64,000 bases of DNA from Nitrosomonas aestuarii (GTDB taxonomy: Bacteria > Pseudomonadota > Gammaproteobacteria > Burkholderiales > Nitrosomonadaceae). Positions within the stretch are counted from its first letter, which is position 1; the number at the start of each line of letters is the position of its first letter. Made by a program: the position numbers and the translations under genes. The notes under the pieces were generated by a model. It made no database searches. It was not told where the DNA came from and saw only the letters and a list, made by a program, of their open reading frames with translations. The DNA lies in assembly GCF_003046585.1 (NCBI RefSeq), contig NZ_QAAE01000003.1:1-64000 (forward strand), in the 5' to 3' direction. Below, one piece after another: positions 11,040 to 64,000 of this stretch.

Positions 11040-12631
11040 AGCGATATTCCTCTGGAAGTACGGGTTTTAGTGAAGCGCTGCTGTTGCATGCACTGTCGGC
11101 GGTACTGTTCAAGTGTCTTGTCTTCGAAGGTAACGCGAATGCCGTGCTGCACGGCAGCCTGCGCAATCGCTTTTTTAAAATCATCGTCACCGTTGATTGC
11201 CAGCCGGTTGCCGTATCGTTTGACGGCTACCTGCAGAATGCCGGCAAAGGATGCGTCTGCAGCATTGGATGGAATATGCAGTCGCCTGCCGTCATCGCGT
11301 ATCGTTGTACTACCCATTCGGTAAATCACGGTACCGCTTCTGGTGATCGATTCGATACGGCCCATGCCGGACCGATTGCCTCGTGTTCGTTTGCCGCAAA
11401 CAGAATTGCCGGTCACTTCACTGTCGGCTTTTCTGGCGCGCAGCACCGCAAGCGCTTCATCATGGCCGTTGCTCGCTTCAATAGCCAGCCAGTCAAGCCA
11501 GGCCATTTTGGGATAACGGGCTTTGGAGCTGGCATAATCGCGGCGGTAGTCGCTCTTGATGATCGTCAGCGCTGTTTTGAATTGCAGGCTGACCGTTGCA
11601 TACAGTGCTTTCTTACCCAGTTTGCCGGCAGCAAGGTTTCTGATGATGCTGCGCTTAAGCCGGGCTTTTTGTTTGGCGCGGTCAATCAGCCGGTCACGTT
11701 GATTGCGCAGCATCACCCACGCAGTTTGTCGTACACCGGCTGCCTGGCTTTGTGCCTGCTGGTATCGTGTATAAAGCTTTGACGTGTCCATGCGACTTTG
11801 CAGCGGTCTGGGCTGGTAGTGTTTGCGTTTTGATAGGGATGTTTTTGCGGTTTCTTGAGTATGCGCAGCCTGTTCAAATGTACCCAGCCGTTTCACAAGA
11901 CTGTTTTTGGACAGCGACCGGTCAACCGAACTGGCTTTAACCGCGACTCCACTTTTCGACACAAACACTAGGCCGTTGCCGCGTTCCCTGATTTCAAGAC
12001 CATGGCTTTGAAGAACTGCATGCAAATCCTGCCAGCTGTCAGCGCTTTTGATTTCAGCAAGGCACTCGCGCCTGATCCAGCCAAGCAGGCTCTCAGTACC
12101 GGCCTTGTTCTCGATGTCCTGTATGACCCGGTCGGTCTGATCAATTCTGGTTTCGTGATTGACTTTGGTCAGACCATATTCCTGCTCGATCTGCTCGCAA
12201 AGTGTCGCAACCTTTTTGTAGTCGTAGTAAGGATTATGAATAGTGAGTTTTGCGGGATGAATCTTGTTGATGGCAATGTGGACGTGCAGATTGTTGGTGT
12301 CGTCATGCACCACACTGATGCGTTGGTGGCCGCAGAAGCCCAATGTCTCACAGAATCGTTCCTCAATCGCAGCCAGATCGGCATTGGATAACCGCTCACC
12401 TTCAGGGAAACTCAGTACCAGGTGACAGGTTTTATCGGATCGGGCGCGTTTGTTCATGTCCTGCGTGTTCTGGATCTCAAGCAGTGCAGCGGTCAGTTCA
12501 TCCGTATAGCAGTTTGTAACCGTCACCTGACCGATGCGCTCGCGCTTGCCCTGGGGATCGGTCAGATACTTCACAAGTGTTGTGAAACTGCTCTTGCGGA
12601 GTGATTTGATGGGGATGATTTTAGCGATCAT
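11036..12631 (-). CDS. traI: TraI-like MOBP relaxase
   Basis: The 531-residue protein starts with the relaxase domain: motif I tyrosine at Tyr22 in KYLTD, motif II around SFPEGERLS (about 74-82), and motif III HDDTNNLHVHIAINKIHP (109-126), whose histidines bind the metal. This nicks oriT and stays linked to the 5' end. The C-terminal region (about 425-520) resembles a large-polyvalent-protein domain of the LPD7 type. RP4 TraI is longer (732 residues). It starts 40 bases after traJ. An intact catalytic set suggests a working relaxase. Confidence 0.9.
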   Translation of the reverse strand: MIAKIIPIKSLRKSSFTTLVKYLTDPQGKRERIGQVTVTNCYTDELTAALLEIQNTQDMNKRARSDKTCHLVLSFPEGERLSNADLAAIEERFCETLGFCGHQRISVVHDDTNNLHVHIAINKIHPAKLTIHNPYYDYKKVATLCEQIEQEYGLTKVNHETRIDQTDRVIQDIENKAGTESLLGWIRRECLAEIKSADSWQDLHAVLQSHGLEIRERGNGLVFVSKSGVAVKASSVDRSLSKNSLVKRLGTFEQAAHTQETAKTSLSKRKHYQPRPLQSRMDTSKLYTRYQQAQSQAAGVRQTAWVMLRNQRDRLIDRAKQKARLKRSIIRNLAAGKLGKKALYATVSLQFKTALTIIKSDYRRDYASSKARYPKMAWLDWLAIEASNGHDEALAVLRARKADSEVTGNSVCGKRTRGNRSGMGRIESITRSGTVIYRMGSTTIRDDGRRLHIPSNAADASFAGILQVAVKRYGNRLAINGDDDFKKAIAQAAVQHGIRVTFEDKTLEQYRRQCMQQQRFTKTRTSRGISL

Positions 12632-12671
12632 GGGTTTTAAGCGGCTTAAGTCAAAATGGTTATTCCGAAGG

Positions 12672-13031
12672 CTATTTTTTGAGTTTCATGATTTCATTCA
12701 GCATTACATTTTGTGTTTCACGGATACTGTCGAGCGTCATATGCAGCTGTGATTTGCCAATGAGTCTGGTGCGCTTGTCGTTAGTCAGCCACAGCTTGAT
12801 CAATCCACCCAGTCGCCCCAGGTCAGCATTGATTTTAAGCAAGGCATCCACATGCCGGTTATCGATCACACTGGGAACGTGATAGCCTAAACCCAGGTTG
12901 CGCAGATATTCGGCAACCGTTAATCCGGATTCCTGTGCTTTACTTTTTATGGCCATCTCTTCTACCGGCAGCACAGGGACCCTGAGTTTCTTGTCTCTTT
13001 TTTCACATCCAATTCCACGATTTCTTCTCAC
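12672..13031 (-). CDS. traJ: TraJ-like oriT-recognition protein
   Basis: A GTG start at 13031 with AAAGGA six bases upstream gives 119 residues, close to RP4 TraJ (123). An upstream ATG at 13217 would add an unsupported 62-residue extension that runs through oriT. The protein aligns well with my memory of RP4 TraJ: a RHH-like N-terminus with RVPVLPVEE, then GLGYHVPSVIDNRHVDAL, then KINADLGRLGGLIKLWLT. TraJ binds one arm of the inverted repeat beside nic and recruits TraI. The gene lies immediately beside the predicted oriT, as in RP4. Confidence 0.88.
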   Translation of the reverse strand: MRRNRGIGCEKRDKKLRVPVLPVEEMAIKSKAQESGLTVAEYLRNLGLGYHVPSVIDNRHVDALLKINADLGRLGGLIKLWLTNDKRTRLIGKSQLHMTLDSIRETQNVMLNEIMKLKK

Positions 13032-13086
13032 GATTTTTCCTTTGTCACCATTCTTTATGGCGTTCTGCAACTGTTTTCTATGCTTA

Positions 13087-13170
13087 CCTCGTAGAGCAAG
13101 ATTAACGTTGAGCACATTTTGTGCGAATAAGTTTGCGTGGAGATGGCCATCTCCACATATCTTGCCCTGT
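13087..13170 (+). other. oriT: IncP-type origin of transfer (oriT) with predicted nic at 13164/13165
   Basis: The order of elements matches RK2/RP4 oriT: CCTCGTAGAGCA (13087-13098), CGTTGAGCAC (13106-13115), GTGCGAATAA (13121-13130), an inverted repeat, then the nick region. GCACA-TTT-TGTGC (13112-13124) is a small hairpin. GTGGAGATGG (13137-13146) and CCATCTCCAC (13147-13156) make a perfect 20-bp palindrome. TATCTTG followed by CCC (13158-13167) corresponds to the RK2 nick sequence TATCCTG/CC with one change. It lies between divergent traJ and traK, as in RP4. The rest of the 409-base gap holds a second repeat, TTGAAAG (13264-13270) and CTTTCAA (13277-13283), and several GAAAC copies that could bind TraK. 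Confidence 0.85.
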
Positions 13171-13440
13171 TGTGTGAATTGTTTGAAATATACTACCACT
13201 ATATTATAAGTTTGCAAACACTAAATATTCGTTATATTATAACTTCAACTGCTTTAAAAATACTTGAAAGCAGCTTCTTTCAACGAAATAACAGTGCGCC
13301 TGAAACAAAAAGAAAGGAAAAGCAGGCAAAAGAAACGAGTTGAAACGGAAAGCAACCCGAGGCAAGTAAGAGAAACTTAAAAACTGAAACAAAACAATAA
13401 AAATATTTTTCGCCAAAAAATAAATTTATACGGCACAAAA

Positions 13441-13767
13441 GTGATGACCCAATCTTTATCAGAACGTATCGCGCTTTTTACAGATAGAAACAGACATGCC
13501 GGCAAACAGTTTTTACCGGCGTTCATCGCATTGAAGCCGGATATCGAGCAGGCATTACAGGATGGCTGGACGGTGAGACAAGTCTGGAACACATTGCATG
13601 ATGAAGGAAAGATTAAATGTTCCTATCAATGGTTCAGGACACTGGTTAACCGGCATATCAACGGGGATAGAAAACAGCATTCGCGCACTGATCAATTAAA
13701 AACTGCCGGAAATGATCAGGAAGGATTTCGTTTTAATTCTGTAACTGAGAAAGAGGAGCTCATCTGA
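13441..13767 (+). CDS. traK: TraK-like oriT-binding transfer protein
   Basis: The protein has 108 residues from a GTG at 13441; the ATG at 13444 is an equally possible start. It is basic and helical with an NRHAGKQFLPAFIALKPDI segment and a helix-turn-helix-like stretch ending SYQWFRTLVNRHI. In RP4 TraK (134 residues) binds and bends oriT on the side away from traJ. It occupies the same place here, first in the divergent transcript. Identification rests on position, size and the following traL and traM. Confidence 0.75.
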   Translation: MMTQSLSERIALFTDRNRHAGKQFLPAFIALKPDIEQALQDGWTVRQVWNTLHDEGKIKCSYQWFRTLVNRHINGDRKQHSRTDQLKTAGNDQEGFRFNSVTEKEELI

Positions 13768-14498
13768 TGGCTAAAATACATATGATTCTGCAGGGTAAGG
13801 GCGGGGTAGGTAAATCGTTTATATCATCGACGCTGGCACAGCATAAGATCACCAAGGGCAAAAATCCTTTGTGCATTGACACCGATCCGGTCAATGCCAC
13901 TTTCTATGGCTTTAAGCAGCTCAATGTGTGCCAGATTAATGTGATGAACAATGACGAGATTGATCCGAGAAAGTTTGACGATCTCATTGAACTCATTGCC
14001 AAAGCAGAGTCGGATGTCATTATTGACAACGGTGCCAGCACCTTCGTGCCGATGTCGCATTATCTGATCAGTAACCAGATTCCGGCATTACTTTTAGACA
14101 TGGGGCACGAACTGATCATTCATACCGTGATTACCGGCAGTCAGGCACTGCTGGATACCCTGAATGGCTTTGTGCATCTGATTAAACAATTTCCCAAAGA
14201 AGCACTGTTTGTTGTCTGGCTCAACCCCTATTGGGGTGAAATTACCATGCATGGCAAACAGTTCGAGGAAATGAAAGCGTATGTGGACAACAAAACACGC
14301 GTATCGGCCATTATCCGGATTCCACACTACAAGCCTGAAACCTTCGGCAAGGATTTAAGCGAAATCCTGCAATCGAAATTCACGTTCGATGAAGCACTAA
14401 AAAACAGCGCTTTACCGGTCATGGTGCGCCAAAGATTAACCATTATACGCAGACAACTGTTTACCAATCTTGAGAATGTGGCTGCGATTCTGACATGA
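13767..14498 (+). CDS. traL: TraL-like ParA/MinD-type ATPase of the transfer region
   Basis: The protein has 243 residues; RP4 TraL has 241. It begins with a deviant Walker A motif, MILQGKGGVGKS (about residues 5-16), followed by FISSTLAQ, CIDTDP and a VIIDNGASTFVP segment, all typical of the ParA/CobQ fold. It overlaps traK by 1 base and traM by 4. TraL is part of the IncP Tra1 region and has an unclear accessory role in transfer. Confidence 0.87.
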   Translation: MAKIHMILQGKGGVGKSFISSTLAQHKITKGKNPLCIDTDPVNATFYGFKQLNVCQINVMNNDEIDPRKFDDLIELIAKAESDVIIDNGASTFVPMSHYLISNQIPALLLDMGHELIIHTVITGSQALLDTLNGFVHLIKQFPKEALFVVWLNPYWGEITMHGKQFEEMKAYVDNKTRVSAIIRIPHYKPETFGKDLSEILQSKFTFDEALKNSALPVMVRQRLTIIRRQLFTNLENVAAILT

Positions 14499-14923
14499 AC
14501 AACGACAAACTGGACGCATTGATCAAACGGATCGCGTCAGAACACGGCATCGTTTTGACCAAAGATGATCCGGTATTGATGATGCATACCCTGAATGAAG
14601 CATTGTTGGAACAAAATGAGAAGGCACATGCTGAACTGCTCAATAAATATCAGGAAATCCTGGAAAACAGCTTTAATCAATGGACAGAATGTTCAATCAA
14701 GAAATCGAATGCCATTCTCAGTGCATCTGTGAATAACGCCAATATATCAAAAAAGCAGCTCTTTGAAAGTTGTACGCAAATGATCCATGAAAAAATCAGA
14801 AGCGCGGTCAGTCAGGAAATTTATGAACTGACCAGAATTTCCAGGCAGGCGGCCATTATGAATTTACTGGCTTCTATTCTTGTGCTGCTGTCAGCGGTCA
14901 TTGTTTCGTTCATGCTGTTATAG
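14495..14923 (+). CDS. traM: TraM-like transfer protein with C-terminal membrane anchor
   Basis: The 142-residue protein (RP4 TraM 145) is mostly alpha-helical and acidic in its first part and ends with one hydrophobic segment, LLASILVLLSAVIVSFMLL (about 123-141). It overlaps traL by 4 bases and completes the traKLM order of IncP plasmids. Its role in transfer is not well understood. Confidence 0.82.
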   Translation: MNNDKLDALIKRIASEHGIVLTKDDPVLMMHTLNEALLEQNEKAHAELLNKYQEILENSFNQWTECSIKKSNAILSASVNNANISKKQLFESCTQMIHEKIRSAVSQEIYELTRISRQAAIMNLLASILVLLSAVIVSFMLL

Positions 14924-14949
14924 CATTTTACTAAAAGGTTGGACGGCTT

Positions 14950-15279
14950 ATGAAAACCTTAAATCTTACGGAAGCGGCCCAGTTTCTTAAATTGCATCCC
15001 GAAGAAGTGCGTCGACGCGCCAAAGCCGGAGTCATTCCAGGCGCCAAATTAGGAAAACGCTGGACATTTATTGAAGATGACCTTGCCGATCATATCCGCT
15101 CGTTATATGCTTGTACGCGGCAAGCGTTGCAAGTGGGACATGAGGAGAAAAAATTATGTCACTCTTTAAACGCGGTAAAACGTGGTGGATTAGATTCACC
15201 GCACCAAGCGGCGAGCGCATTAGATGCTCTGCTGCAACAGAAGACAAAACCCAGGCGCAAGAATTTCACGACAAGCTAA
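14950..15279 (+). CDS. Excisionase-like helix-turn-helix protein
   Basis: The 109-residue protein begins with a winged-helix of the HTH_17/MerR kind: LNLTEAAQFLKLHPEEVRRR, then GVIPGAKLGKRWTF, then a DDLADHIRS helix. Such proteins often act as recombination directionality factors or set integrase expression. Its last 124 bases overlap the integrase gene in another frame, so the C-terminal 40 residues lie over integrase codons and have no family similarity that I can see. The real function of that tail is unclear. Confidence 0.75.
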   Translation: MKTLNLTEAAQFLKLHPEEVRRRAKAGVIPGAKLGKRWTFIEDDLADHIRSLYACTRQALQVGHEEKKLCHSLNAVKRGGLDSPHQAASALDALLQQKTKPRRKNFTTS

Positions 15280-16169
15280 AAGCGGAAGCGTGGAGAATTG
15301 CAAAAGTTGGCGAAAAACCAAAATATACCTGGGATGAAGCTGCTTATAAATGGCTGATGGAAACGCAGCACAAAAAAACACAGCATGATGATGTTTCCAA
15401 AATTAGTTGGCTCCAGCAATTTTTCAGGGGCAAATATCTTCATGAGATTACCCGTGAAGAAATTGCAAGAATAGGGGCGTTAAAGTTAAAAACAACCACT
15501 CCGGCTACGGCAAATCGATTGCTGGCACTGATTCGTTCTATTTTCCGGCGGGCTGCTCTCGACTGGGCATGGATTGATAAAGTGCCAACTATCAAACTGT
15601 ACCGGGAGCCAAAGCGACGGATACGTTATTTGAGTGTTGAAGAAGCCAATAAGCTTATGCAGGAATTGCCGGTCCATTTGGCGGATATTGTGCGATTCTC
15701 ACTGGCTACGGGTTTGCGGCGAGCAAATGTTACAAAACTTGAATGGTCACAAGTCGACATGGAGCGCAATGTTGCATGGATACATGGCGATCAGGCAAAA
15801 GCCGGGAAGCCGATTCATGTGTCACTTAATTCTACGGCTATTGATGTGTTAGCGAGACAAATTGGAAAACATCCCAAAACAGTATTTACTTATAAAGGCA
15901 TGCCCATTAATCAAGTAAATACTAGAGCTTGGCGTAAGGCATTAAGACGGGCTGGTATTGAAGATTTTCGCTGGCATGATTTGCGCCATACCTGGGCGAG
16001 TTGGTTAACCCAGAATGGTGTGCCATTAAATGTCATTCAGGAGATGGGGGCATGGGAATCTGCAGAGATGGTTCGACGGTATGCGCATCTAGCACCAGCT
16101 CAGTTTACAATACATGCTCGTGTCGTAGATGCCATGTTTTCTGGCACAAATTTGACACAATCAAAATAA
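15156..16169 (+). CDS. int: Tyrosine-recombinase integrase of the tRNA-Thr element
   Basis: The ATG at 15156 follows GAGGAG and gives 337 residues. The full catalytic set is visible: Arg188 in TGLRRANV, Lys215 in DQAKAGK, His274 and Arg277 in HDLRHTW, Trp300 in MGAWES and Tyr309 in RRYAHL. The N-terminal DNA-binding part starts SLFKRGKTWWIRFTAPSG, as in phage-type integrases. It ends 36 bases from the 3' end of the tRNA-Thr gene, so this junction is the attachment site and the enzyme is likely active. Confidence 0.93.
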   Translation: MSLFKRGKTWWIRFTAPSGERIRCSAATEDKTQAQEFHDKLKAEAWRIAKVGEKPKYTWDEAAYKWLMETQHKKTQHDDVSKISWLQQFFRGKYLHEITREEIARIGALKLKTTTPATANRLLALIRSIFRRAALDWAWIDKVPTIKLYREPKRRIRYLSVEEANKLMQELPVHLADIVRFSLATGLRRANVTKLEWSQVDMERNVAWIHGDQAKAGKPIHVSLNSTAIDVLARQIGKHPKTVFTYKGMPINQVNTRAWRKALRRAGIEDFRWHDLRHTWASWLTQNGVPLNVIQEMGAWESAEMVRRYAHLAPAQFTIHARVVDAMFSGTNLTQSK

Positions 16170-16204
16170 TGCTTATGCAGCTGTGCTTCTAAGTCATTGA
16201 TTAA

Positions 16205-16280
<76 letters not shown>

Positions 16281-47279: not shown

Positions 47280-48863
<1,584 letters not shown>

Positions 48864-48874
<11 letters not shown>

Positions 48875-49181
48875 TTTTTTGACCTTTTTTGTGAGTGTCG
48901 GCAGCCTGATCAAATTCGGGCGCATCTTGAGACTCTAGCAACTTTTCAGAATCCGGTGCAACTTCTGCGTAAATATCAGGCAATAAAATCTGCACGGTAT
49001 CAACGCCCCAGCCGATGTCGACCATTGTGCTCATGATTGCCCAGAGTGAAGACAGCAATTCATTTTGCTGGTCTTGTGTCAGGTCAAACTCATCAAGATG
49101 ATGCCGGTAAGCATCTGGCTCTAGTTTTAATGGTGCAGCGCTATCCTTTGTTATATTGGCATTTATAGTTTTATCGTGCAT
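48864..49181 (-). CDS. Conserved small protein of the mobile element, unknown function
   Basis: The ATG at 49181 follows GGAGG by seven bases and gives 105 residues; the upstream ATG at 49202 lacks such a site. The protein is acidic, with the core AYRHHLDEFDLTQDQQNELLSSLW and MVDIGWGVDTVQILL. Similar short proteins sit next to recombinases in alphaproteobacterial integrative elements as I remember them. It overlaps the recombinase start by 11 bases, so the two are co-expressed. Confidence 0.7.
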
Positions 49182-50499: not shown

Positions 50500-52254
50500 C
50501 TATAATCTGATCTTCACTTTCTTCTTGAAGGGCTTGCCGTGGAACGGATTGATCCCAACCTGCGCGCGCCACGGCTGGATTTCGGCGTATGAAACCGGTT
50601 CAAACAAAATCGGGAGGTGCTGGCGCACGAATAAAATCCCTGCAAGTAATCGTCTGATCTCATCGGGCGTGGCGAGCGGGCGGCCTGCTTCGCTTAAATT
50701 CTCACTTAATCCGGGTTGCTCATTGGATCGGCTGGTGCCAATGGCCATCATGGTTTGATCCCCCAGCATTTGTTTGGAGATGAGTTCCAGTGTTTTAGGC
50801 GAGCGCTGACCGGGTAGGAATTGTTTAATCTCAGTTTCACTCAACAAGGTATCCAGTGCGGTTTTGCCGTAAGTGCGCTCAAACGCAGCCAAATCCTGAA
50901 AGATCAGATGCAGGCGCAGTCCATACGACCGGCCCCATGTGAGTAAATTTTCAAGGCCGTTTACTTTGTAATTGGTGGCCTCATCCAAAATATAATGCAC
51001 AGGCCGCTCTTTATTATCATGGCGTTTCACAGCCGTCATACAGCACCACTGCATCAGACCAACAAAGGACTTATAGGCTTCCATCCGGCTGGCATCGGCC
51101 ACAATAAATAGCGTGGTTGGCCGTTTCCCCTCTTTTAAATCGCTCATCCTAAAAGTTGAGCGGCCCATGGCCGGTGCTAGCCTGCCAAATGCGAATGGGG
51201 CCAAGGCAATTTGCGATCCCGTGATGAAACTATCAAATGTGCGGTTATCCCCGCCAGACATAAGCGCAATGAGATTTTTTGCTCTGGCTCTGACTAATCC
51301 CGCAAACTCGGCCAAATCTTGCGGATCGTGTCCTTGCGCCCATTCGGTGCGTTCTATCGGAAACGGGCCTTCCGGGTGCGCTTTGCCCTCAAGATCAACT
51401 CCGGCCACCCATCGCGCCATGTCTTCAAGGCGGGTGCGGTTTTCGATTAACAGCGCGACAGATGAGAGCGTGGCATCGAATAAATCCACCATGACTTCAA
51501 AAAAAATCGCATCGGTGATGAGCCGCCTACTCCCTTCACGAAAGTAGGAATTATCCGTTTCTTTATCACCGGGTTCCGGCAGGATTTGTGCGCACATTTC
51601 CCGCAAATCATCCATCACATCCCGTAATCCACTGGGGCGCGTTAGATCGTCAGCAATAATATCCAGTGGATTGTATGAATCACTTTGGCCGATAATGTTC
51701 TGCCATAAATTGCCGGGATTAAGAACGCGCACAATCTCACCGCGTTTTTCCAATGCAGCCTTGCACATGCACACCAACTCGCCCTTAAAATCAGCGATCA
51801 CCTTACTGTGCAAAATACTCATGATATTGGTCACAACGGTAAAAATACCTTTACCCGATCCGGCTGGCGCGATGGTCATCGCATTGGAAGCATAATCAAA
51901 GAAAAGAGCGGGCCGGGAGCCGTCCAAAGCGCGGCCCCAGAATGGGCCGCGTTTGCTTCTGCTTAGTGCGTCTTTGTATTCTTTGATTTTTGCCCATGCG
52001 GCGCTGCCGTGCTGGCCTGATGGTTTGCGGCTGGCCAAAAAGTCAATGAAGTGCGAGATATTTTCCAGCAAGCGAATAGCTGTGTGCAGACAAAACAATC
52101 CAGCCATGAAATAAACAAACGCCGAAAACCAATCCACATGGCCACCGGCCAGCGGCGCATCCAGTTGCAGCGCCCACCACACCAGTCCGCCCGCAATTGA
52201 AGCAATTGCCAGCAGGCTGGGTTGATTTTGATTGGGGGAGTATTGTGGATTCAT
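50500..52254 (-). CDS. VirD4/TraG-type coupling protein of the right-hand element
   Basis: The 584-residue protein has two N-terminal membrane segments (about 13-30 and 42-62), the Walker A motif APAGSGKGIF (about 128-137), and a Walker B segment VHYILDEATNY. It differs strongly from the TraG of the left element, for example with the motif FTVVTNIMSILHSKVIADFKG-like region after Walker A. Coupling proteins move relaxase-bound DNA to a type IV channel. No relaxase is visible in this element's portion of the window, so it is only partly represented here. Confidence 0.88.
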   Translation of the reverse strand: MNPQYSPNQNQPSLLAIASIAGGLVWWALQLDAPLAGGHVDWFSAFVYFMAGLFCLHTAIRLLENISHFIDFLASRKPSGQHGSAAWAKIKEYKDALSRSKRGPFWGRALDGSRPALFFDYASNAMTIAPAGSGKGIFTVVTNIMSILHSKVIADFKGELVCMCKAALEKRGEIVRVLNPGNLWQNIIGQSDSYNPLDIIADDLTRPSGLRDVMDDLREMCAQILPEPGDKETDNSYFREGSRRLITDAIFFEVMVDLFDATLSSVALLIENRTRLEDMARWVAGVDLEGKAHPEGPFPIERTEWAQGHDPQDLAEFAGLVRARAKNLIALMSGGDNRTFDSFITGSQIALAPFAFGRLAPAMGRSTFRMSDLKEGKRPTTLFIVADASRMEAYKSFVGLMQWCCMTAVKRHDNKERPVHYILDEATNYKVNGLENLLTWGRSYGLRLHLIFQDLAAFERTYGKTALDTLLSETEIKQFLPGQRSPKTLELISKQMLGDQTMMAIGTSRSNEQPGLSENLSEAGRPLATPDEIRRLLAGILFVRQHLPILFEPVSYAEIQPWRAQVGINPFHGKPFKKKVKIRL

Positions 52255-52370: not shown

Positions 52371-53303
52371 CTACATCTCAGCGCGAATCCTTTTTTGGAA
52401 ATAACAATTGGCATTATAGGGATCAAGCTCGAGCCCGGCTTTAAAAACTTCCTGTGCTTTGTCATCCAATCCTTTTTTCTTCAAGCATATTCCGGCATAA
52501 AGATAATCACGGGCAATATCCTGAATATCTTTTGAGGTCGGTATGTTTTGCGTGTCTCGCTCTCCCCATTCGGAGAGATCGACATCCAGATAGATTGCAA
52601 ACTGTTTCAATGCTTCGTCAAACTTACCTTCAATAAATAATATACGGACCCGCTTTGAATGTGTAGCAATCAGGAGGAACCTGTTCGGTGGATTTTGATT
52701 GAGATTTACAATATATGGCGGCGATTCCAGGAATTGGTCATTTCGTAGTTTCGCCTCCTTAATATTTTTCATATCAATAGCCAAGTCAAAAATATGGCTT
52801 TGTATGTTGTGTATCCATCCTTCACATAAGTGAGTTTCATTTCCTTGATTATTCAATGAGGCAAGTCTGTCCAGACTCTCTATCATTTCATCATATGCCT
52901 GCTCATAGGAAATTTCCTGTGCAAAAAGCTTTGCATGCATGGCTCTAAATTTTCCAATTTCAGCCCGCACCGGATCATTATTTAAATCAGCGTTTTTAGC
53001 GCTTTCTTCAAATAACGCTACAGCGCTTTGTGTCTCACATCTGAGAAATTTTATTGTGCCTAGCTCATATTGAATTTCTGATACATCGGCATAAGTAATA
53101 CCGGTATTGTTACGCAGCGATTCAAGATAAACGCTCAGAACTTTTTCATATCTTTCGGCAGCCTCTTTCAGTTTTCCTTTGCGACGATAGCGATCTCTAA
53201 TCTGCCCTGCATAACTTCGTAAAAGGCTTGTTTTCAACTTTCTAAGTTGTTCTATCGAAAAATCTTTTTGCTCAACCTCAATTTCATCCGTCATCACTTG
53301 CAT
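52371..53303 (-). CDS. TPR-rich protein partnered with the STAND ATPase
   Basis: The 310-residue protein is almost all alpha-helix, with TPR-type helix pairs including EAAERYEKVLSVYLESL, AVALFEESAKNADL and a final canonical unit, DKAQEVFKAGLELDPYNAN. There is no signal peptide or membrane segment. Its start overlaps the end of the ATPase gene by 20 bases, so the two are almost surely translated together. In STAND systems the TPR sensor region is normally fused to the ATPase; here it may be supplied as a separate chain. That pairing is inference. Confidence 0.8.
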   Translation of the reverse strand: MQVMTDEIEVEQKDFSIEQLRKLKTSLLRSYAGQIRDRYRRKGKLKEAAERYEKVLSVYLESLRNNTGITYADVSEIQYELGTIKFLRCETQSAVALFEESAKNADLNNDPVRAEIGKFRAMHAKLFAQEISYEQAYDEMIESLDRLASLNNQGNETHLCEGWIHNIQSHIFDLAIDMKNIKEAKLRNDQFLESPPYIVNLNQNPPNRFLLIATHSKRVRILFIEGKFDEALKQFAIYLDVDLSEWGERDTQNIPTSKDIQDIARDYLYAGICLKKKGLDDKAQEVFKAGLELDPYNANCYFQKRIRAEM

Positions 53304-55434
53304 GCTCGCATATTATTTTAAAAATTAGGTGATCATATCTTTTTATAAACTTACGACCCCGGTTTCCAGAGCAGTGCTTGTCTGTATCTCCAGGTCTGCT
53401 GTCCTCGTTTGTAAAAATCGATGTGATTTCTTTATTGCTTATAATAGTGTTTGTCTCATTCTCTATATCAACGATATTCTTGATAAAATCGGTGAGGATT
53501 TTATCCAGTTGTTCTTGAGGATAGTTTTTATTCGACATCTGCGTATACATCTGCGCAAGATAATCGATTATTTTCCATTCTCCACGGTCTATCAGGTTGA
53601 CATATTCTTTGCAGAACGTCCAATTTGTTAGGTAGGTTGACAGTTTGAGCATATCCTCTGACCTGAAAAGAGATTCAGGAATGAGTTTTATTGTTTCAAT
53701 CTGCATTTTTGACTGATGATGTTTTTTGTAAGTAATTCTCTTTGCTTCATTATCAAGAGCAATATCTTCAACAGTGCATTTTGCTAATTCTTCATATGAT
53801 TCCGGTCTGCTTTCTATCTTTTGTAGCTCAATGATGTGCTTGTTAATAAACTCATAAAATAGTTGGTGTGAAAATTTTAGATAGGCAATATTATCCAAAA
53901 TAATTTCGTCGATTAACCGGATGGCGATCCAGTTTTCAATCATAGCGTCAACTTTAATTTGCTTAAGTCCACATAGTGCAGAAAGATGATAAAGGGAAAT
54001 ATCGGGCTTAAAATGTAAAATCCCCGCCAAAATTATTTTTTTTACTTCTTTTATTTCTTTATTTTTTTCATCAGAAAAAAATCTGTCGTATTGTTTCTCA
54101 TAAAATTCTTCAATGCCTTGTGGCAGAGCGTCTATATCTTCAAACCCCGTAATATTCTGAAAGACGTGAAACAAATATAAAAAACGACATTCACTTTTTT
54201 TGTATAAAATCTCTGTGAATGAATTGGCATCAAGTTTATTCTTTTTAATCCAGCGCTTAACCTCGTCCAGCGCCGACTTTTCCTTTATATAATCGCGAAT
54301 ATCTTTTTTCTGATGTGGCTCTTTTTTGTCTAAAGAAAGGTTAAGCTGTTTTCCTGCGTAGACTTGTTTCTTTTTGTTTCTCGATGAAATCAAGAAAAAG
54401 ATGCTTTCCGGCAATTCTTGCTCGGGAATATAGAGTAAATTTCTATCGTCGCTTTGCTTTGTAATATCTTTATGAGAAATTTCATCAAGCGCATCGACAG
54501 CGATGAGTAACGGTCGTTTTGTCTGCAAAGCTACTGTTTGGATGAGTTTCTTTAGAAATGTTCCTGAAAGACTATGCCAAGCCGTTGGCAATCTATCATA
54601 ATCAGCTTTTAAAGAGGATAAATCATAGATTCTGTTCAACTGTTCATAAATACATTCGATGAAGTTGGTTGTATTATCGTGATCGGTTCCATGGCTTACA
54701 AAGTAGTAAACACAATTAAATTCATCTGATTTATTGTATTTTTTAACCGCATTGGCAAGAATGGCGCTTTTTCCTGTGCCGCCATCACCTCGAACGGTAA
54801 TAAATCCGCTGTCATTCTCTTGAAGGAATTTATCTATTTCTTTAAAAACATGTTTTCTTTCAAAAAAATCTATTGAAAGTTTTTCTATACGTGTTTGGAA
54901 GGGATCTATATAGGTATCTTTTGATAAAGAAATTGAGGCTGATTTGATTTCTAGTTGATGATTGTTTTCTGTTTTTTTAACTTGCTCCAAGTCGCTAGGA
55001 TTTGGAAATTCGTTGTGTTTGAGGCCAATTTTCGTATAAAAATTTCTAATATCATCCGGATGATCATGCCAAAGCCAAGCTAAAAGGTATGGCCAATATG
55101 TTTTAGTATGACCACGTTTCAATTCTGCTATGGCATTACCAATTAAATTTCCTTTTAGGGTAGTCTTATATTTTTTATCTTGTTCTTTTTTTAAATCTTG
55201 AAAACCTTGCTGCTCCATACCCAAAGCAGGAACAATGCCTATTTCATCGTGAAGATAGTTATAAAACATTTGGTTATCGTTGCCCCACTTTTCCTCTCGA
55301 AGGCGGATTACTATCTTCCATAATTCAAATGTAGGTTTTGTTTTTTGACCGCTACTATCAAAATCCAACCGTTGATGTTTGCGGATACATTTAGCATCGT
55401 ATATGTAAAGATTATATAAGCTGTTATCTGCCAT
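53284..55434 (-). CDS. NACHT/STAND-like P-loop ATPase, candidate defence protein
   Basis: The 716-residue protein has an unrecognised N-terminal region (about 1-160), then an ATPase core with Walker A VRGDGGTGKSAIL (about 214-226) and a Walker B of the NACHT form, PLLIAVDALDEI (308-319), then an SSRNKK sensor-like segment and a helical C-terminal region with LKFSHQLFYEFI, typical of the winged-helix part of STAND proteins. Such ATPases act as switches that assemble when a trigger binds; many bacterial relatives (Avs-type) sense phage proteins. Base composition is clearly AT-rich against the transfer genes around it, suggesting separate acquisition. The effector and trigger are not apparent. 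Confidence 0.8.
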   Translation of the reverse strand: MADNSLYNLYIYDAKCIRKHQRLDFDSSGQKTKPTFELWKIVIRLREEKWGNDNQMFYNYLHDEIGIVPALGMEQQGFQDLKKEQDKKYKTTLKGNLIGNAIAELKRGHTKTYWPYLLAWLWHDHPDDIRNFYTKIGLKHNEFPNPSDLEQVKKTENNHQLEIKSASISLSKDTYIDPFQTRIEKLSIDFFERKHVFKEIDKFLQENDSGFITVRGDGGTGKSAILANAVKKYNKSDEFNCVYYFVSHGTDHDNTTNFIECIYEQLNRIYDLSSLKADYDRLPTAWHSLSGTFLKKLIQTVALQTKRPLLIAVDALDEISHKDITKQSDDRNLLYIPEQELPESIFFLISSRNKKKQVYAGKQLNLSLDKKEPHQKKDIRDYIKEKSALDEVKRWIKKNKLDANSFTEILYKKSECRFLYLFHVFQNITGFEDIDALPQGIEEFYEKQYDRFFSDEKNKEIKEVKKIILAGILHFKPDISLYHLSALCGLKQIKVDAMIENWIAIRLIDEIILDNIAYLKFSHQLFYEFINKHIIELQKIESRPESYEELAKCTVEDIALDNEAKRITYKKHHQSKMQIETIKLIPESLFRSEDMLKLSTYLTNWTFCKEYVNLIDRGEWKIIDYLAQMYTQMSNKNYPQEQLDKILTDFIKNIVDIENETNTIISNKEITSIFTNEDSRPGDTDKHCSGNRGRKFIKRYDHLIFKIICEHASDDG

Positions 55435-55486
55435 ACAAGTAATTCTATGGCAGACAGGAATTTAATGCTATCCGGATAGAAAATTC

Positions 55487-56098
55487 TTACTTTGGAAAAT
55501 CTAAATCGTTGGTGCTAGATTTAACAGTTACTTGATTGCCATGCCGATACCAGAGTTGCGTTTGAACAAGTCCGCTATCTTCACCACGCACTATTACTGC
55601 TGGCGCGTCACCCTCTCTGTGGAGTTTGCCATTGAGATACCATTCTTCACAAACAGCTATTCCTGAATCTGATTCTCTACGAATTATCGCTGCACCGTTA
55701 TGACGGTGGGGTTGGCCATTAACATACCACTGTTCATTGATAACCAAACCGGTTTCAATTGATTTATCGATTAGAGAAGGTGCATTTTCTCTATGTTCTT
55801 GGCCATTTTTATACCAAATTTCTACACTATAGCCACGATCATTGTATATAAATGCGGGCGCACCCTCACGGTGACGCTTTCCATTTTCATACCATTCCTG
55901 AACAGTAACTTCACCGGAATCCTCATCATAGCGAGTAATGGCTGGCCCACCAACACGATGAAGAACACCATTTTTTTTCCAAATTTCTGAGACACAAGGG
56001 GTAGGATCGTAATCTAAATCACTGCCTTCTTCGGACAGATCAAGGCTGTTATAAATAACCTCCACGGTGTACGACCCTAATTCAGGCAACCTTCCCAA
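55487..56098 (-). CDS. MORN-like repeat protein (WY-NG-HR type)
   Basis: The 203-residue protein has about six copies of a unit around 25-30 residues long with the pattern WYxNGxxHR followed by a Pro-Ala/Ile segment, for example EWYENGKRHREGAPAFI, IWYKNGQEHRENAPSLI and QWYVNGQPHRHNGAAII. This is the MORN-variant repeat found in diverse bacteria and some large viruses. No signal peptide is seen. It lies 52 bases before the ATPase gene on the same strand, so it heads the candidate three-gene cargo unit. Function is unknown. Confidence 0.78.
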   Translation of the reverse strand: MGRLPELGSYTVEVIYNSLDLSEEGSDLDYDPTPCVSEIWKKNGVLHRVGGPAITRYDEDSGEVTVQEWYENGKRHREGAPAFIYNDRGYSVEIWYKNGQEHRENAPSLIDKSIETGLVINEQWYVNGQPHRHNGAAIIRRESDSGIAVCEEWYLNGKLHREGDAPAVIVRGEDSGLVQTQLWYRHGNQVTVKSSTNDLDFPK

Positions 56099-56350
56099 CT
56101 ACTTTTCTTTCTCTTAACTAAATCACCTAACCTATTAATAGTTATATATTTTATTTCTATAACCGTCAAATAAATTATTTTCCGTAGCCCCATAGTTTTT
56201 TTACATGGATAAAACATGTAAATCACAGAAACCCTACGACTTCGCACATGGATCAATCATTGAGACACTGATTTGACTGAGCAGGACGCTCTCAGCGACA
56301 GAGAACCCGGGTTCTCCATTCCAACTAGTTCCCAAATGGAGGACAAAAAA

Positions 56351-56710
56351 ATGCAATATAAGAAAAAGAGAATTGTCTTTGTAACAGAGGCAGAAAAATT
56401 CAAAAGCCCTCATCGTAGAAAACGTTTGTGGCTGGCGGCACGGAATTTGAAGATTTCACGGCGTAATTGGCCAGATGAAATAGCCGATTCTATATACAAT
56501 TTTGATGGCGATATTATAGTTGGCAGTATACGGTGGCCCATACCTGATATTGATAATATCCTAGGCGACCCGCGTTGGTTTTCTTATTATTTTGAAGAAG
56601 ATGAGGAAGGTGAGCCGCGCCGCGATGTGCGATTGCTCGAGCGTTTAAGGCTCATCGATTTGTATTTCAAAATTAAGCATCCCAATATAGCCAGACATTT
56701 CGACAGGTAA
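56351..56710 (+). CDS. Small basic protein, unknown function
   Basis: The ATG at 56351 is preceded by GGAGGA at eight bases and gives 119 residues; the frame is open further upstream to 56273 without a comparable ribosome site. The protein has a basic start (MQYKKKRIVF), an RRKRLWLAARNLK segment and an acidic EEDEEGEPRRD near the end. No family is recognised. A strong terminator follows, so it is a single-gene transcript between the cargo block and the membrane-protein operon. Confidence 0.6.
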   Translation: MQYKKKRIVFVTEAEKFKSPHRRKRLWLAARNLKISRRNWPDEIADSIYNFDGDIIVGSIRWPIPDIDNILGDPRWFSYYFEEDEEGEPRRDVRLLERLRLIDLYFKIKHPNIARHFDR

Positions 56711-56713
56711 CAA

Positions 56714-56763
56714 CAACGGGCATGTCAGATTAAATTTTCTGACATGCCCGTTGTTTTTTTTCA
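56714..56763 (+). terminator. Strong rho-independent terminator
   Basis: CAACGGGCATGTCAG (56714-56728) pairs perfectly with CTGACATGCCCGTTG (56739-56753) around a 10-base loop and is followed by a run of T. It separates the small upstream gene from the operon starting at 56856. Confidence 0.92.
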
Positions 56764-56855
56764 TTCCCTGTTTCCCAAAGCATAAAAACATCATCTCTAT
56801 GATGTTCAATGCTCAGCGCATAAGTGCTGCGCCATAGATACAAGGAGATTAATTT

Positions 56856-57902
56856 ATGGCTACAACAAAACCCAAATCCAAAATAAAAAAGCAAAATTTT
56901 GCCGCCTCATTGATTGAGTCCGGCAATAAGAAAATCGGTAGAAGAGCGCCATCATCAACGCCGCCTGAGTTTTCCCAAAGGTTAATTCATCATCCCGACG
57001 GGGAAGCTGCCGCTGCATTGATTAAGGAGCAAGCCGCTTTTGAAGCCGATTTGAAATTCGGCGCGGAACTGGCGCAGGTGAAGCTGGATACCGAAAATAT
57101 CGACACCAGATTCAAGGCCGCTCACAAATTGCTCGGTGATCTTGAAATCAAAAAAGCGAATACTGCGCGATATATCAAAAGCGGGGCTTTGCACAGTACC
57201 GGTAAAAAAGATGCCAGCGATATTCAATGGAAAGATTGGCGGCGCAAAGACCAGATTTTGCTGTGCGTATTGCTGTCCTTCCTCGTTATTGCCGCTGGTC
57301 TGGGCATGGGTAATGTCTATGCCAATCTGGTTGCTTCCGGCAATGCTGTGTTCATTGAAAAACCATGGCTGGCGCTGATGATTTCAGCATTAATGCCTAT
57401 CGCCTCTGTGTCAGTCAAGTTTGTGACCAACTTCATGACCTATGACAGCTCGCGCAAGACTTACGCCAAATGCATCTATGCCGCCACCGGCATTGCCTTT
57501 CTATTCTGGGGCAGCATGTTTGGCGTGATTCACACCGGCGTTGCCGGATCGATTGACTGGGATTCTTTCGGTGAAAGCGCCGATCCGGGATTTGCGTTCA
57601 TCTGGTCACAATTGCTGGTCGAGATGCTGGCCGCCAGTGCCCTGTTCCTTGCAGTGGAAGACATCTATATGCGCTATTCACCGGATGTCTATGTTGAGAA
57701 TCTCGAATTTATCGAAATCGAAAAAGCGCTCAAGGAACATCACGCAACTCATGAAGTTTTGCGTGAAAAACGCGGGCAGCTCCATGGCCGCCGGGTCGAG
57801 CTAGAGGCCGAGCGTGAAGCCTTTATCAACGAGCGGATCGTGGAATATATCAGCCTGCGGGCACGTCATATCGCCACGATGAACTCCCATGCTGGCCGTT
57901 AA
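56856..57902 (+). CDS. Multi-pass membrane protein with coiled-coil ends
   Basis: The 348-residue protein has a basic, soluble N-terminus (about 1-128), then four likely membrane helices (around ILLCVLLSFLVIAAGLGMG, PWLALMISALMPIASV, IYAATGIAFLFWGSMFG and FIWSQLLVEMLAASALFL), and a C-terminal coiled coil rich in Glu and Arg. AAGGAGA precedes the start. It overlaps or abuts the next gene and is probably part of the element's envelope functions. No family is recognised. Confidence 0.75.
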   Translation: MATTKPKSKIKKQNFAASLIESGNKKIGRRAPSSTPPEFSQRLIHHPDGEAAAALIKEQAAFEADLKFGAELAQVKLDTENIDTRFKAAHKLLGDLEIKKANTARYIKSGALHSTGKKDASDIQWKDWRRKDQILLCVLLSFLVIAAGLGMGNVYANLVASGNAVFIEKPWLALMISALMPIASVSVKFVTNFMTYDSSRKTYAKCIYAATGIAFLFWGSMFGVIHTGVAGSIDWDSFGESADPGFAFIWSQLLVEMLAASALFLAVEDIYMRYSPDVYVENLEFIEIEKALKEHHATHEVLREKRGQLHGRRVELEAEREAFINERIVEYISLRARHIATMNSHAGR

Positions 57903-57918
57903 TTTTAAGGAGGTTCGT

Positions 57919-59220
57919 ATGTATAAAAATACCTTGTTGTTCTGCACCATACTCATTATGTGGCTGTTAGCTGCTCAAGCAGCTTCGGCCCGCAATCTGG
58001 TTGTGGCGGTTTCGCCTTACTATACGCCGGATGAAGCCCGGCGGCATTCCATTACGTTATTGCAACAGCTCACGGAGCTGAACCAAGGCAGCCGGGTGAC
58101 GCTGCTTGATGGTTATAATTTGTCAATCATTGGGGAGTTCAACATTCCCGATAATCCGGCCTATAACAATCCTAAAGCCAGACTGGGTGTAAACCGCAAG
58201 GCTGCAACCGCGCTCAAGCGTTTTGCCGATCAATCTGTCGCGCCGGGCGGAAAAGGTCATCCATCCATATCCGGCGCTGTGCGCCTGCCGCAACTTTTGC
58301 GCTATGTCGCCAATAACTTTGAGCGAGACGGTGGGCTGGATGTAATTATTTTGGGTTCGCCTTTATATGACGACCCAAGAGAGCCGGTCTTTTCTATGGC
58401 TGGCGGGCGCTTTCCTTCCGATGGTCATTTGTTCGCCTCGCAGGGCAAAACGCCGTTTGGCGCTGCCGGTCATTCCGGCTTACTTAAAAATGTCATCGTC
58501 CATATCGGCTATGGCAGCGACAATATCATGCAAGGCGACCGGCATGCTTATTTCGTCAAACGCTTTTGGACGCTTTATGCTGAATTACTTGGCGGCAAGC
58601 TGGGCGGTTTTGTCGGCGATGTGCCGACAGTGTTCCGAAGCGTTTCAAGTAATGCCGCGCCGCCTGCTCATGCTTTCAAGCCCGTAAAGTCAAACAAGCT
58701 GGAGATGGTCATCCTGCCCCCGGTGGAAAGCAGGCAATCCATATTCGAGCGGCCCGTCAGTGAAACCGTTTTGGCTCAGGCGCAAATACGCCGTGCAGAA
58801 AACGTGCAGATCGGCATATCATGGCAATGCGCCTTGTGCGATTTGGATTTATACGCTCAGGCAATGCCCGGTGCGCCGGTGCTGTATTTCGGACGCATTG
58901 TCACGCCGCATGGGCGCTACTGGAAAGATTACCGCAATTCTCCCGGCCCAACCAACGGTTATGAAACCATTGGTTTTGATGTGCCGCTGGATTTGCGCAC
59001 ATTGACTATCGCCATCAATTTTTATGAGGGTCAAGCGCCGCAAGGTGTGTCAGGTGAGTTGCGGCTATCGATTGATGGCCATACTTATGCTTCAACCTTT
59101 CATATTGCGGCTACTACAGGCAATCAAGGCAAGGGCGCATTGGAAGCTATTGAATCAGGCCATGCAAACCAGCCTCAATCCATCATTATCAATCCTTTAC
59201 GCGTAGTGGGATTGCAATAA
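57919..59220 (+). CDS. Exported protein with a C-terminal YfaP/TerD-like beta domain
   Basis: The ATG at 57919 follows AAGGAGG and gives 433 residues with a signal peptide (LLFCTILIMWLLAAQAASA); a frame start at 57889 lies in the previous gene. The N-terminal half (about 25-230) contains DVIILGSPLYDD and VHIGYGSDN and looks like a diverged Rossmann/von Willebrand-type fold. The C-terminal part has IGISWQCALCDLDLYAQA, then YWKDYRNSPGPTNGYETIGF, resembling the YfaP or TerD beta-sandwich. Its substrate is unknown. It follows the membrane protein by 16 bases. Confidence 0.75.
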   Translation: MYKNTLLFCTILIMWLLAAQAASARNLVVAVSPYYTPDEARRHSITLLQQLTELNQGSRVTLLDGYNLSIIGEFNIPDNPAYNNPKARLGVNRKAATALKRFADQSVAPGGKGHPSISGAVRLPQLLRYVANNFERDGGLDVIILGSPLYDDPREPVFSMAGGRFPSDGHLFASQGKTPFGAAGHSGLLKNVIVHIGYGSDNIMQGDRHAYFVKRFWTLYAELLGGKLGGFVGDVPTVFRSVSSNAAPPAHAFKPVKSNKLEMVILPPVESRQSIFERPVSETVLAQAQIRRAENVQIGISWQCALCDLDLYAQAMPGAPVLYFGRIVTPHGRYWKDYRNSPGPTNGYETIGFDVPLDLRTLTIAINFYEGQAPQGVSGELRLSIDGHTYASTFHIAATTGNQGKGALEAIESGHANQPQSIIINPLRVVGLQ

Positions 59221-59402
59221 TCCCACGTCACAATTCCAGCGTCCCGGTTGGGACGCTTGGAACGCAAAACGCGATACTAAAATTCAGATAAACACCAAGC
59301 AATTAACCGCTTATTAACCTGTTCCTGTTAGGGTAAAAGGGCAATTTTGTGTGTGTGATAACGCTTTCAAGCCAATACTCTACTAACCGGGAGGCAGGGA
59401 CA

Positions 59403-59534
59403 ATGGGGCGCAGTGTGCCTGAAATTTCATTAGCAGTGATTGAGAATAACGCTGTTATTCTCAATCTTCGGGAGGCGATAGTATACCGAAGCGTTTCGGC
59501 GGCACCGTCCCAAAGCGGGGCCGCCAATGGTTAA
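59403..59534 (+). CDS. Possible 43-residue small protein
   Basis: An ATG at 59403 follows GGGAGGCAGG and opens a 43-codon frame (MGRSVPEISLAVIENN) that overlaps the next gene start by 8 bases, which suggests coupling. The middle of the frame is made of a perfect DNA hairpin, so the frame could instead be an accident of a structured leader. The rest of the gap after 59220 has no gene. Confidence 0.4.
   Translation: MGRSVPEISLAVIENNAVILNLREAIVYRSVSAAPSQSGAANG
59438..59466. repeat. Perfect 13-bp hairpin
   Basis: GATTGAGAATAAC (59438-59450) and GTTATTCTCAATC (59454-59466) are perfectly complementary around a GCT loop, followed closely by GGGAGG. It has no T run, so it is not a standard terminator. 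It may be an operator, an RNA control hairpin for the gene at 59527, or part of a transfer origin. Confidence 0.7.
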
Positions 59535-60324
59535 GCCAACGGACGAAAGCTTACGGGTTTCCGGCGGATTAACGAATATTTTCATTCATTGCGATGCGTG
59601 TTTGTCAGACGCAGAATTTAACCGTCTGCGCGGACATGAACTCGCCGAAATTGAAACCAAAATTCTACATGGGCAGCTCAGCGATTCCGTCAGCGGTGTC
59701 ATGGAGCGCGGTTCTGTCGTTAGCAACAACGAGTCCAAACAAGACCAAGAACGCAAAACCAAAGAGCGTAGAACGGCGCAGCTTGTCGAATTGGTTGAGC
59801 GAATCCGCGCCGATATGGAACAAATGAAAGCCCGTATCAAGGCGTTGGAAGATTCATTCCAACAGCGTGATGGTGATGCATGGCGGGAGAAACTGGCGCT
59901 TGAAATATTGGGCGCGGACGATATTCCGCAGCAGGAATCCGGCGAAAATATTGAAGCTTACCGCAAGCGGCTGGAAAAACACCTCATCGAAGAAATGCTG
60001 AATCCAGATGGCTCGATTAAAGGCAAATACCAAAACGATCCACAATATAGCGACTATGCAGAATGGGCGCAGAAACAATACCACTTGAGTAACGCCAAAG
60101 CGGTAGTTGCGGAATTGGATAATGACAGCACCAGCCCGCAGCGCCGGGAGCAAATCCTCCATGAAATGAAGGAACGTGGTTATGCCGAAGAAATGATGTT
60201 AGCCGCCCGAACGACAACCGATCAAAATACACAACATGAAATCAAAAATGCGGATGATAGCAATCAGGATATTGTTGCACAAAATGAACAGGTATCCGAA
60301 GTAAACGCTTTCCTCAAACTTTAA
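59527..60324 (+). CDS. Helical protein of unknown function
   Basis: The 265-residue protein has a short N-terminal globular part with HCDACLSDAEFNRL (a CxxC pair), a coiled coil from about 75 to 115 (RIRADMEQMKARIKALED), and a charged C-terminal region. It has no signal peptide. It is the last gene of the plus-strand run and converges on the next gene with 3 bases between them. No family is recognised. Confidence 0.68.
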   Translation: MVKPTDESLRVSGGLTNIFIHCDACLSDAEFNRLRGHELAEIETKILHGQLSDSVSGVMERGSVVSNNESKQDQERKTKERRTAQLVELVERIRADMEQMKARIKALEDSFQQRDGDAWREKLALEILGADDIPQQESGENIEAYRKRLEKHLIEEMLNPDGSIKGKYQNDPQYSDYAEWAQKQYHLSNAKAVVAELDNDSTSPQRREQILHEMKERGYAEEMMLAARTTTDQNTQHEIKNADDSNQDIVAQNEQVSEVNAFLKL

Positions 60325-63152: not shown

Positions 63153-64000
63153 CTAAAAACTCAGGCTGGCGGTATAAATTTTCTGCGGGTCTGCGCGGTT
63201 CTCATAGGTTTGCTCACTTTTTGGGGGCAAAGGATTATTTTCAATATAAGCGGCAACTTGATAAAGCGATCCGTCTTCCTTAAGCGATTCAAATTGTTGT
63301 TCAAATAAATCCGGAGACTGTTTGAGTTCAATCAATGACACCACTTCCGGCGGCATATCATCGACCATCGCGTTGGGGAGTCCGTTAAACGCAGCCGTTA
63401 AATCAATATTTGGCGTGTCCGGGCCCTTAAGCCAATTCCAAAGACTGGCAGTTTTCAGCGCAGCCATGTTGAGCGCGCCTGCAGCTTCATTGGAAATATG
63501 AAGAGCGCGGCCTTTAATCGCTGCAAAATTATCATAAACAAGCGCTGTAATCTCGCCGCTGGCAAGTCCGCCGCCGATGCCACCAACCACAGCGCCAACG
63601 GCGGTGCCGACACCGGGCATAACAGCCGTGCCTATGGCTGCGCCCGCCAATGCACCGCCCGCCGCGCCGATATTGGAAGTTGTTTCGATGAGGCCAGAGC
63701 GCTTCATGGCTTGTGGATCGCCGCGCAGCGCATCTATTTGCGTTTCACCATAAGGAATGGCTCCTTCATATAGAGCTTCTGCGGCTTCTGCTGTTGAACC
63801 ACCGGCAGCATACGTGAATGCGCTTGATAAAGTGCCAAAAGCTACACCTGCGATAAGGCCACCGTTTTTGCCAAGGCGTCCAAATGTTTCGGCCACTTTT
63901 CCAAGGGCGCTGCCTTTGGCATCAAGCTCACCCTTATAGGAAAACTGCTCTCTCAGTTCCGGTTTTACAAGCGTATTCAGATTGCCGTCATGGGCAGCGG
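63153..64000 (-). CDS. C-terminal part of a large glycine-zipper protein, 5' end outside window
   Basis: The frame stays open from the stop at 63153 to the right edge without a break, so the start lies beyond it; an internal GTG at 63896 is not needed. About 280 residues are visible. The middle has a glycine zipper of about 35 residues (from GAAGGALAGAAIG to VVGGIGGG), which could insert in a membrane, followed by soluble sequence ending ADPQKIYTASLSF. It may belong to the secretion machinery or be a large surface or toxin-like protein; the visible part does not decide. Confidence 0.7.
   Translation of the reverse strand, partial: AAHDGNLNTLVKPELREQFSYKGELDAKGSALGKVAETFGRLGKNGGLIAGVAFGTLSSAFTYAAGGSTAEAAEALYEGAIPYGETQIDALRGDPQAMKRSGLIETTSNIGAAGGALAGAAIGTAVMPGVGTAVGAVVGGIGGGLASGEITALVYDNFAAIKGRALHISNEAAGALNMAALKTASLWNWLKGPDTPNIDLTAAFNGLPNAMVDDMPPEVVSLIELKQSPDLFEQQFESLKEDGSLYQVAAYIENNPLPPKSEQTYENRADPQKIYTASLSF

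Follow-up and report, generated by a model that had tools for sequence, protein, structure and literature searches.

Analysis of a window of 64,000 nucleotides from Nitrosomonas aestuarii (assembly GCF_003046585.1, contig NZ_QAAE01000003.1, positions 1 to 64,000), which forms the start of a contig of 303,920 bases, pointed to a locus at 52371-56098 that may encode a split immune switch of the NLR-like (STAND) kind, as cargo of an integrative mobile element; judged from the sequence, we give this reading about an even chance. The locus consists of three open reading frames (ORFs) on the minus strand, in the order MORN-like repeat protein (203 residues), STAND ATPase (716 residues) and TPR protein (310 residues). 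The ATPase and TPR genes share 20 bases (53284-53303), and 52 bases separate the stop codon of the MORN-like gene from the start of the ATPase gene. A preliminary description of this DNA had reported three same-strand genes with this overlap and spacing, all of which were confirmed by the ORF coordinates.

The STAND ATPase and the separate TPR protein

The ATPase (53284-55434, minus strand) matched the Pfam families NPHP3_N (50.7 bits, cut-off 24.8) and NB-ARC (28.6 bits, cut-off 23.5), and fell slightly under the cut-off for NACHT (25 bits, cut-off 26.7). Alignment of the window ATPase with five relatives encoded on plasmids revealed that G219, G221 and K222 of the Walker A motif GDGGTGKS (residues 216-223; 54766-54789), D314, L316, D317 and E318 of the Walker B region PLLIAVDALDE (residues 308-318; 54481-54513), and R352 are invariant in all six sequences, as is His523 in the winged-helix-like part. 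The features by which a STAND NTPase is recognised, namely Walker A, an acidic Walker B, a sensor arginine and a winged-helix-like part with a conserved histidine, were all found, and by these motifs the window ATPase is a genuine STAND NTPase that has kept its key residues. The STAND core and winged-helix-like part span residues 179-545 (53800-54900) and are common to the plasmid STAND proteins; they are preceded by an N-terminal domain (residues 1-178; 54901-55434) and followed by a C-terminal extension (residues 546-716; 53287-53799). Searching solved structures with the ATPase gave chance-like matches only, and no relatives of it were found in viral contigs or phage records, nor in genome contigs by exact short-peptide matching, which reaches near relatives only. 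A search of PHROGs gave weak matches only.

The TPR protein (52371-53303, minus strand) carries TPR motifs at residues 37-104 and 265-302 and exceeded the Pfam cut-offs for TPR_2 (32.8 bits, cut-off 27), TPR_11 (28.5 bits, cut-off 26.8) and TPR_14 (27.6 bits, cut-off 23.5); solved structures returned generic TPRs only. It was present in one of 85 genomes of the genus, its own, with no match in plasmids or viral contigs and none in genome contigs by the same short-peptide matching, again limited to near relatives. Its frame contains a stop codon four codons before the ATG. A simple frameshift split of one ORF into the ATPase and TPR genes was considered and ruled out on account of this stop. 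Profile searches, which the preliminary description had proposed as a check, upheld the TPR assignment above cut-off and the STAND assignment through NPHP3_N and NB-ARC, and left both NACHT and MORN_2 below cut-off.

Plasmid relatives and comparison with known systems

Relatives of the ATPase were found in six plasmid records, none of them covering 80% of the query, and the part they have in common corresponds to residues 179-545. Two weaker plasmid matches (Streptomyces and Salinibacter) are excluded from the six, and the Bradyrhizobium relative (L008), which lies in broken pieces, was omitted from the alignments. In four of the six, the ATPase gene is directly followed by a separate gene for a repeat protein, with WD40 repeats in two cases and helical repeats in two. 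In Nostoc linckia, a helical-repeat ORF lies 91 bases after an EAD4-STAND gene and runs over the record start; its tandem helical repeats were judged by eye, and no repeat family matched the part scanned at E<=0.001. In Pseudanabaena, a WD40 gene with 11 matched stretches lies 41 bases after an EAD10-STAND gene, and a caspase gene is found two genes upstream of the STAND gene, with one further gene between. In Rhizobium johnstonii the lipase-like gene and the STAND gene have 1-4 bases in common, according to which start is chosen, and a separate helical-repeat gene of 890 residues (PPR, APAF1_C and TPR matches all below cut-off) follows 37 bases after the STAND gene; this order of a first gene, a STAND ATPase and a separate helical-repeat protein is therefore the same plan as in the window, with a lipase replacing the MORN-like protein. 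Chroococcidiopsis has a STAND gene with a WD40 gene 19 bases on. A Chroococcidiopsis plasmid (L038:921-6137) also has a single WD40 gene between two STAND-type ATPase genes, both matching the window ATPase, which may be a layout of two switches with one sensor. The broken Bradyrhizobium pieces, one of which is fused to a trypsin-like domain, have insertion sequences on both sides and were counted as neither split nor fused.

The split sensor had been put forward as an undescribed layout, a claim that the four relatives with a separate downstream repeat gene overturn: the layout is not new and is known from sequence. No paper naming it was found in the open-licence literature, including the accessible parts of PMC7159879, PMC8195603, PMC12799240, PMC12931631, PMC10907252 and PMC13236601. 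What is specific to the window, as far as these comparisons go, is the N-terminal domain, for which no relative was found, together with a MORN-like gene where two relatives have an effector gene.

Comparison with EAD-STAND systems showed that the window core (residues 179-545) is homologous to the EAD4- and EAD10-STAND proteins and that its N-terminal domain occupies the position of the EAD (accessible parts of PMC7159879 and PMC8195603). These relatives have separate repeat genes, one of them also a caspase gene, and in the accessible text of PMC8195603 repeats and NTPase are said to share one polypeptide as a rule. The window differs in that no EAD family matched and that a MORN-like gene stands in place of a caspase, trypsin or lipase partner gene; no effector gene adjoins, the places being taken by the MORN-like gene and by an ORF of 145 residues that had no match. 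The CARD-NLR system LypABC, as set out in the available part of PMC13236601, resembles the window in having three genes, an ATPase with an N-terminal region of ~190 residues, and TPR-like repeats, but the TPRs of LypB are fused and its partners are peptidases, whereas the trio shows no peptidase family and thus no CARD-bearing trypsin-like peptidase, the partner that marks these systems.

Among AVAST (Avs) systems the nearest is Avs1, which likewise pairs a repeat sensor with a STAND ATPase in the vicinity of mobile-element genes; the window differs by its separate sensor chain, and no nuclease, Sir2 or protease family was found in the trio. Membership of an Avs family, which the preliminary description had named as a test, gave a mixed answer: all five plasmid relatives scanned matched PADLOC Avs1b (E 1e-14 to 1e-6), whereas the window ATPase matched no Avs model in PADLOC at E<=1, only STAND_TPR and QatA, and is therefore placed on the outskirts of that clade. 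The STAND_TPR model (PDLC01173) matched ATPase residues 183-326 (E 8.5e-8), but the score was only 28.9 bits and the match took in just 137 of 1114 model positions; in the window no Xre-HTH was found and the TPR is not fused. Because a defining feature of each of Avs, EAD-STAND and CARD-NLR was looked for and found absent, the window was filed under none of them.

These comparisons also bear on another explanation, by which the ATPase would be a STAND-type transcription or stress regulator of the element, presumably of a MalT/AfsR-like kind, and not a defence protein. Research on bacterial STAND NTPases has dealt with them chiefly as regulators of transcription (PMC7159879, accessible part). 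The best PADLOC model, STAND_TPR, stands by its description for an ATPase with fused Xre-HTH and TPR parts, and HTH_31 matches the Chroococcidiopsis relative weakly, below cut-off (20.4 bits, cut-off 27). However, profile scans found no helix-turn-helix or other DNA-binding family in the three proteins of the window, and in three of the six relatives the STAND protein is accompanied by a caspase or lipase gene or by a trypsin-like domain, so that we regard a regulator as highly unlikely.

The N-terminal domain and the MORN-like gene

The N-terminal region of the ATPase had been described as unrecognised, and it stayed so: no Pfam family covers residues 1-178 and no EAD family matched them at E<=5, although the domain may be an EAD too diverged for Pfam. 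No match was obtained in plasmids at E<=1, and no relative in viral contigs. Across 398 genomes of the phylum, the domain matched its own genome and one other place (E 4.9e-5, 34 residues), which was rejected as chance, being out of frame, containing stops and sitting at the junction of two unrelated long ORFs. Kinship with the N-terminal domain common to two STAND-ankyrin proteins of the same genus (described below) was likewise rejected (hhalign probability 0.1), and none was found with one upstream Pseudanabaena protein. A single-sequence model of the domain is helical over residues 36-135 and weak (mean predicted local distance difference test score, pLDDT, 50.6); a bundle of helices would be more in keeping with an adaptor than with an enzyme, which we take as a hint only. 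If the ATPase is indeed part of a split immune switch, this domain is a candidate new effector adaptor.

The MORN-like protein (55487-56098, minus strand) plainly consists of six W[YK]-type units with a period of 26-30 residues, written more fully as EWY-x-NG-x-x-HRE-type units of ~29 residues each. It shares short W-Y-x-x-G units with MORN_2-type repeat proteins, which we take to be linked to YwqK, but its score against Pfam MORN_2 (19.3 bits, E 0.0012) is under the cut-off of 29.6, too low to call a MORN repeat, and no toxin partner was recognised. The ORF relies on a TTG start directly 3' of a stop codon, its model was too poor to use (mean pLDDT 34.6), and the protein bears no enzyme signature. 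It was found in one of 61 relative genomes, its own, and had no match in viral contigs or phage records. As the MORN-like gene lies at the position of the caspase or lipase gene in two relatives, it comes first among the candidates for a partner of the N-terminal domain, and by this analogy it could be an effector, an adaptor or a target binder. Its membership in the system is unproven because none of the other genomes searched contained the trio, and we put the chance that it belongs to the split receptor a little short of one half.

The contending view, that ATPase and TPR protein form a two-gene system and the MORN-like gene, coding perhaps for a YwqK-like protein or an orphan repeat protein, is cargo unconnected with it, is a tentative one that we nevertheless take seriously, at less than an even chance. 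Relatives of the MORN-like protein were found on two plasmids, where no neighbouring gene bears a STAND or TPR annotation, and the five hypothetical neighbours that were scanned match no Pfam family. Conversely, MORN_2 is absent upstream of the STAND relatives (none at E<=0.01 in four upstream neighbours, and none by BLAST in one more). The GC content of the MORN-like gene also differs from that of the ATPase gene (0.43 and 0.34, respectively), but its third-position GC is similarly low, it stands on the same strand just 52 bases from the ATPase gene in a gap holding no terminator-like or promoter-like site, and its position matches that of the effector gene in two relatives.

Mobile element, distribution and proposed role

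To the left of the trio, on the same strand, lie the genes for a VirD4/TraG-type conjugative coupling protein of the host element (50500-52254; family match) and a large serine recombinase (47291-48925), the latter overlapping tRNA-Phe (47280-47355) and being the probable integration gene of the element. Transfer genes had been described on both sides; the coupling protein on the left bore this out, while none of the four right-hand ORFs scanned (56273-60324) exceeded a Pfam cut-off. The AT-rich composition noted earlier holds against the left coupling-protein gene (GC 0.34-0.43 for the trio, with 0.39 for the TPR gene, against 0.51), and the GC content at 57-59 kb is 0.50-0.54. Since third-position GC is 0.31-0.36 in the trio and 0.55 in the adjoining coupling-protein gene, the trio probably has another origin than that gene. 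The divergent ORF of 145 residues (56273-56710) had no match in any of four profile libraries, and a terminator-like stem of 18 pairs with a T-run (56712-56755) follows directly after it.

Further along the contig are type III Res (ResIII above cut-off) and Mod (MTase_III) genes at 66.2-72.0 kb, a Gabija pair at 74.1-76.7 kb (GajA, E 1e-106; GajB, E 4e-56), a UvrD-type helicase within 66.2-76.7 kb (L039:6217-16663) whose N-terminal HigB-like match is weak and below cut-off, a relaxase at 84.6-85.9 kb, and a pentapeptide-repeat protein with a C-terminal TIR domain at 86.8-87.8 kb (L040:6777-7835), which matches PADLOC ThsB and PDC-S66. The picture of a STAND ATPase with a separate TPR protein, set beside a coupling-protein gene and with other defence genes on the same contig stretch, was thereby upheld, and by this genomic context a defence role is likely. 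A protein of 477 residues at 63153-64000 and beyond (L039:3153-4586), in which a RelA/SpoT-type region narrowly exceeds its cut-off and a glycine zipper is matched weakly, is possibly an effector or toxin of the element. A second mobile element at 9174-16280 encodes a VirD4-type coupling protein, a MobA/VirD2-type relaxase and a tyrosine integrase adjoining tRNA-Thr.

Two other genomes of the genus carry STAND genes in a similar setting. A sister element in G010, with a coupling protein 82% identical and a recombinase 44% identical, encodes a STAND-ankyrin protein of 1264 residues (L030:3450-7244, G010:C60) at a distance of ~3 kb from the coupling-protein gene; BLAST showed no similarity between this protein and the window ATPase. 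In G824, a draft genome with 6% contamination, a STAND-ankyrin protein (L037:3261-6032, G824:C409) lies ~0.9 kb from a different coupling-protein gene and has two tandem STAND domains followed by ankyrin repeats, the contig end cutting the protein. Its first STAND domain, situated between the N-terminal domain and the main STAND domain, is a copy of the window type in which Walker A is altered; the identity is 29% over 208 residues. The G010 and G824 proteins are ~33% identical in their N-terminal domains and 62% identical over 566 positions of their STAND-ankyrin part. With STAND genes of differing types near coupling-protein genes at three loci in the genus, these genes look like exchangeable cargo of such elements.

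The locus itself is rare. Searches with the full-length ATPase found two of 61 relative genomes (the window's own and a weak match in a frame of 2232 residues) and two of 369 genomes of the class (its own and a match of 80 residues). A profile of the common STAND part detected, in each case including the own genome, one of 398 phylum genomes at E<=1e-15, two of 219 class genomes at E<=1e-10 and five of 85 genus genomes at E<=1e-6; only part of the first-look candidates was scored in the phylum and class searches, and besides the own genome and G824 the genus matches are three weak ones (E 1.5e-9 to 5.3e-11) in frames of 1657-2072 residues. The preliminary description had proposed looking for the trio in other genomes and had itself named lack of co-occurrence as a refutation; the outcome spoke against a conserved three-gene unit, no second copy appearing in the searches made.

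Several observations weigh against a split immune switch carried by a mobile element. The trio is a single known example among the genomes searched, the N-terminal domain and the TPR protein had no relatives in the searches made, and no recognisable effector domain was found in any of the three proteins. By BLAST the TPR chain is not similar to the repeat protein that R. johnstonii encodes separately, the R. jaguaris relative, one of the six, is a single protein of 1025 residues and was counted against the split habit, and the helical model of the N-terminal domain is weak. No copies of the tRNA-Phe 3' end marking the far end of the element were found; a shared element for the other defence genes is therefore not proven. 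Finally, the last ~37 codons of the ATPase gene (53304-53415) score at background in the codon-usage scan, with another frame briefly scoring higher, which makes the true C-terminus of the ATPase uncertain; loss of the native C-terminus could mean decay.

This last observation, with the missing effector domain and the single occurrence, leads to the view that the locus is a decayed or disabled, non-functional remnant of a fused or larger STAND system, and the altered Walker A of the window-type domain in the G824 protein indicates that such modules decay and recombine here. Yet all three ORFs are open and the NTPase motifs are kept, and the stop four codons ahead of the TPR ATG rules out one ORF halved by a simple frameshift, while four of the six relatives also have the split; we consider a remnant unlikely.

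If the locus does encode a split immune switch, the TPR chain would bind the C-terminal part of the ATPase and recognise a foreign protein of phage or plasmid origin, ligand binding would drive nucleotide exchange and assembly of the ATPase, and the helical N-terminal domain would gather and activate an effector, leading to cell death or arrest. The effector itself is the least sure step. Signal passing by the N-terminal domain is proposed by analogy with LypB, whose residues 1-193 were modelled with the CARD of LypA (PMC13236601, available part). The fuller version of three separate chains, with sensing by the TPR protein, switching by a STAND ATPase with a new adaptor fold, and output by the MORN-like protein as a new effector or effector scaffold, appears very unlikely to us.

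Should the split switch prove real, it would be a further member of a branch of bacterial NLR relatives whose ligand-sensing chain is unfused from the switch. Split receptors of this kind would let one switch pair with exchangeable sensors, and the coupling between sensor and ATPase could then be tested by mixing chains.

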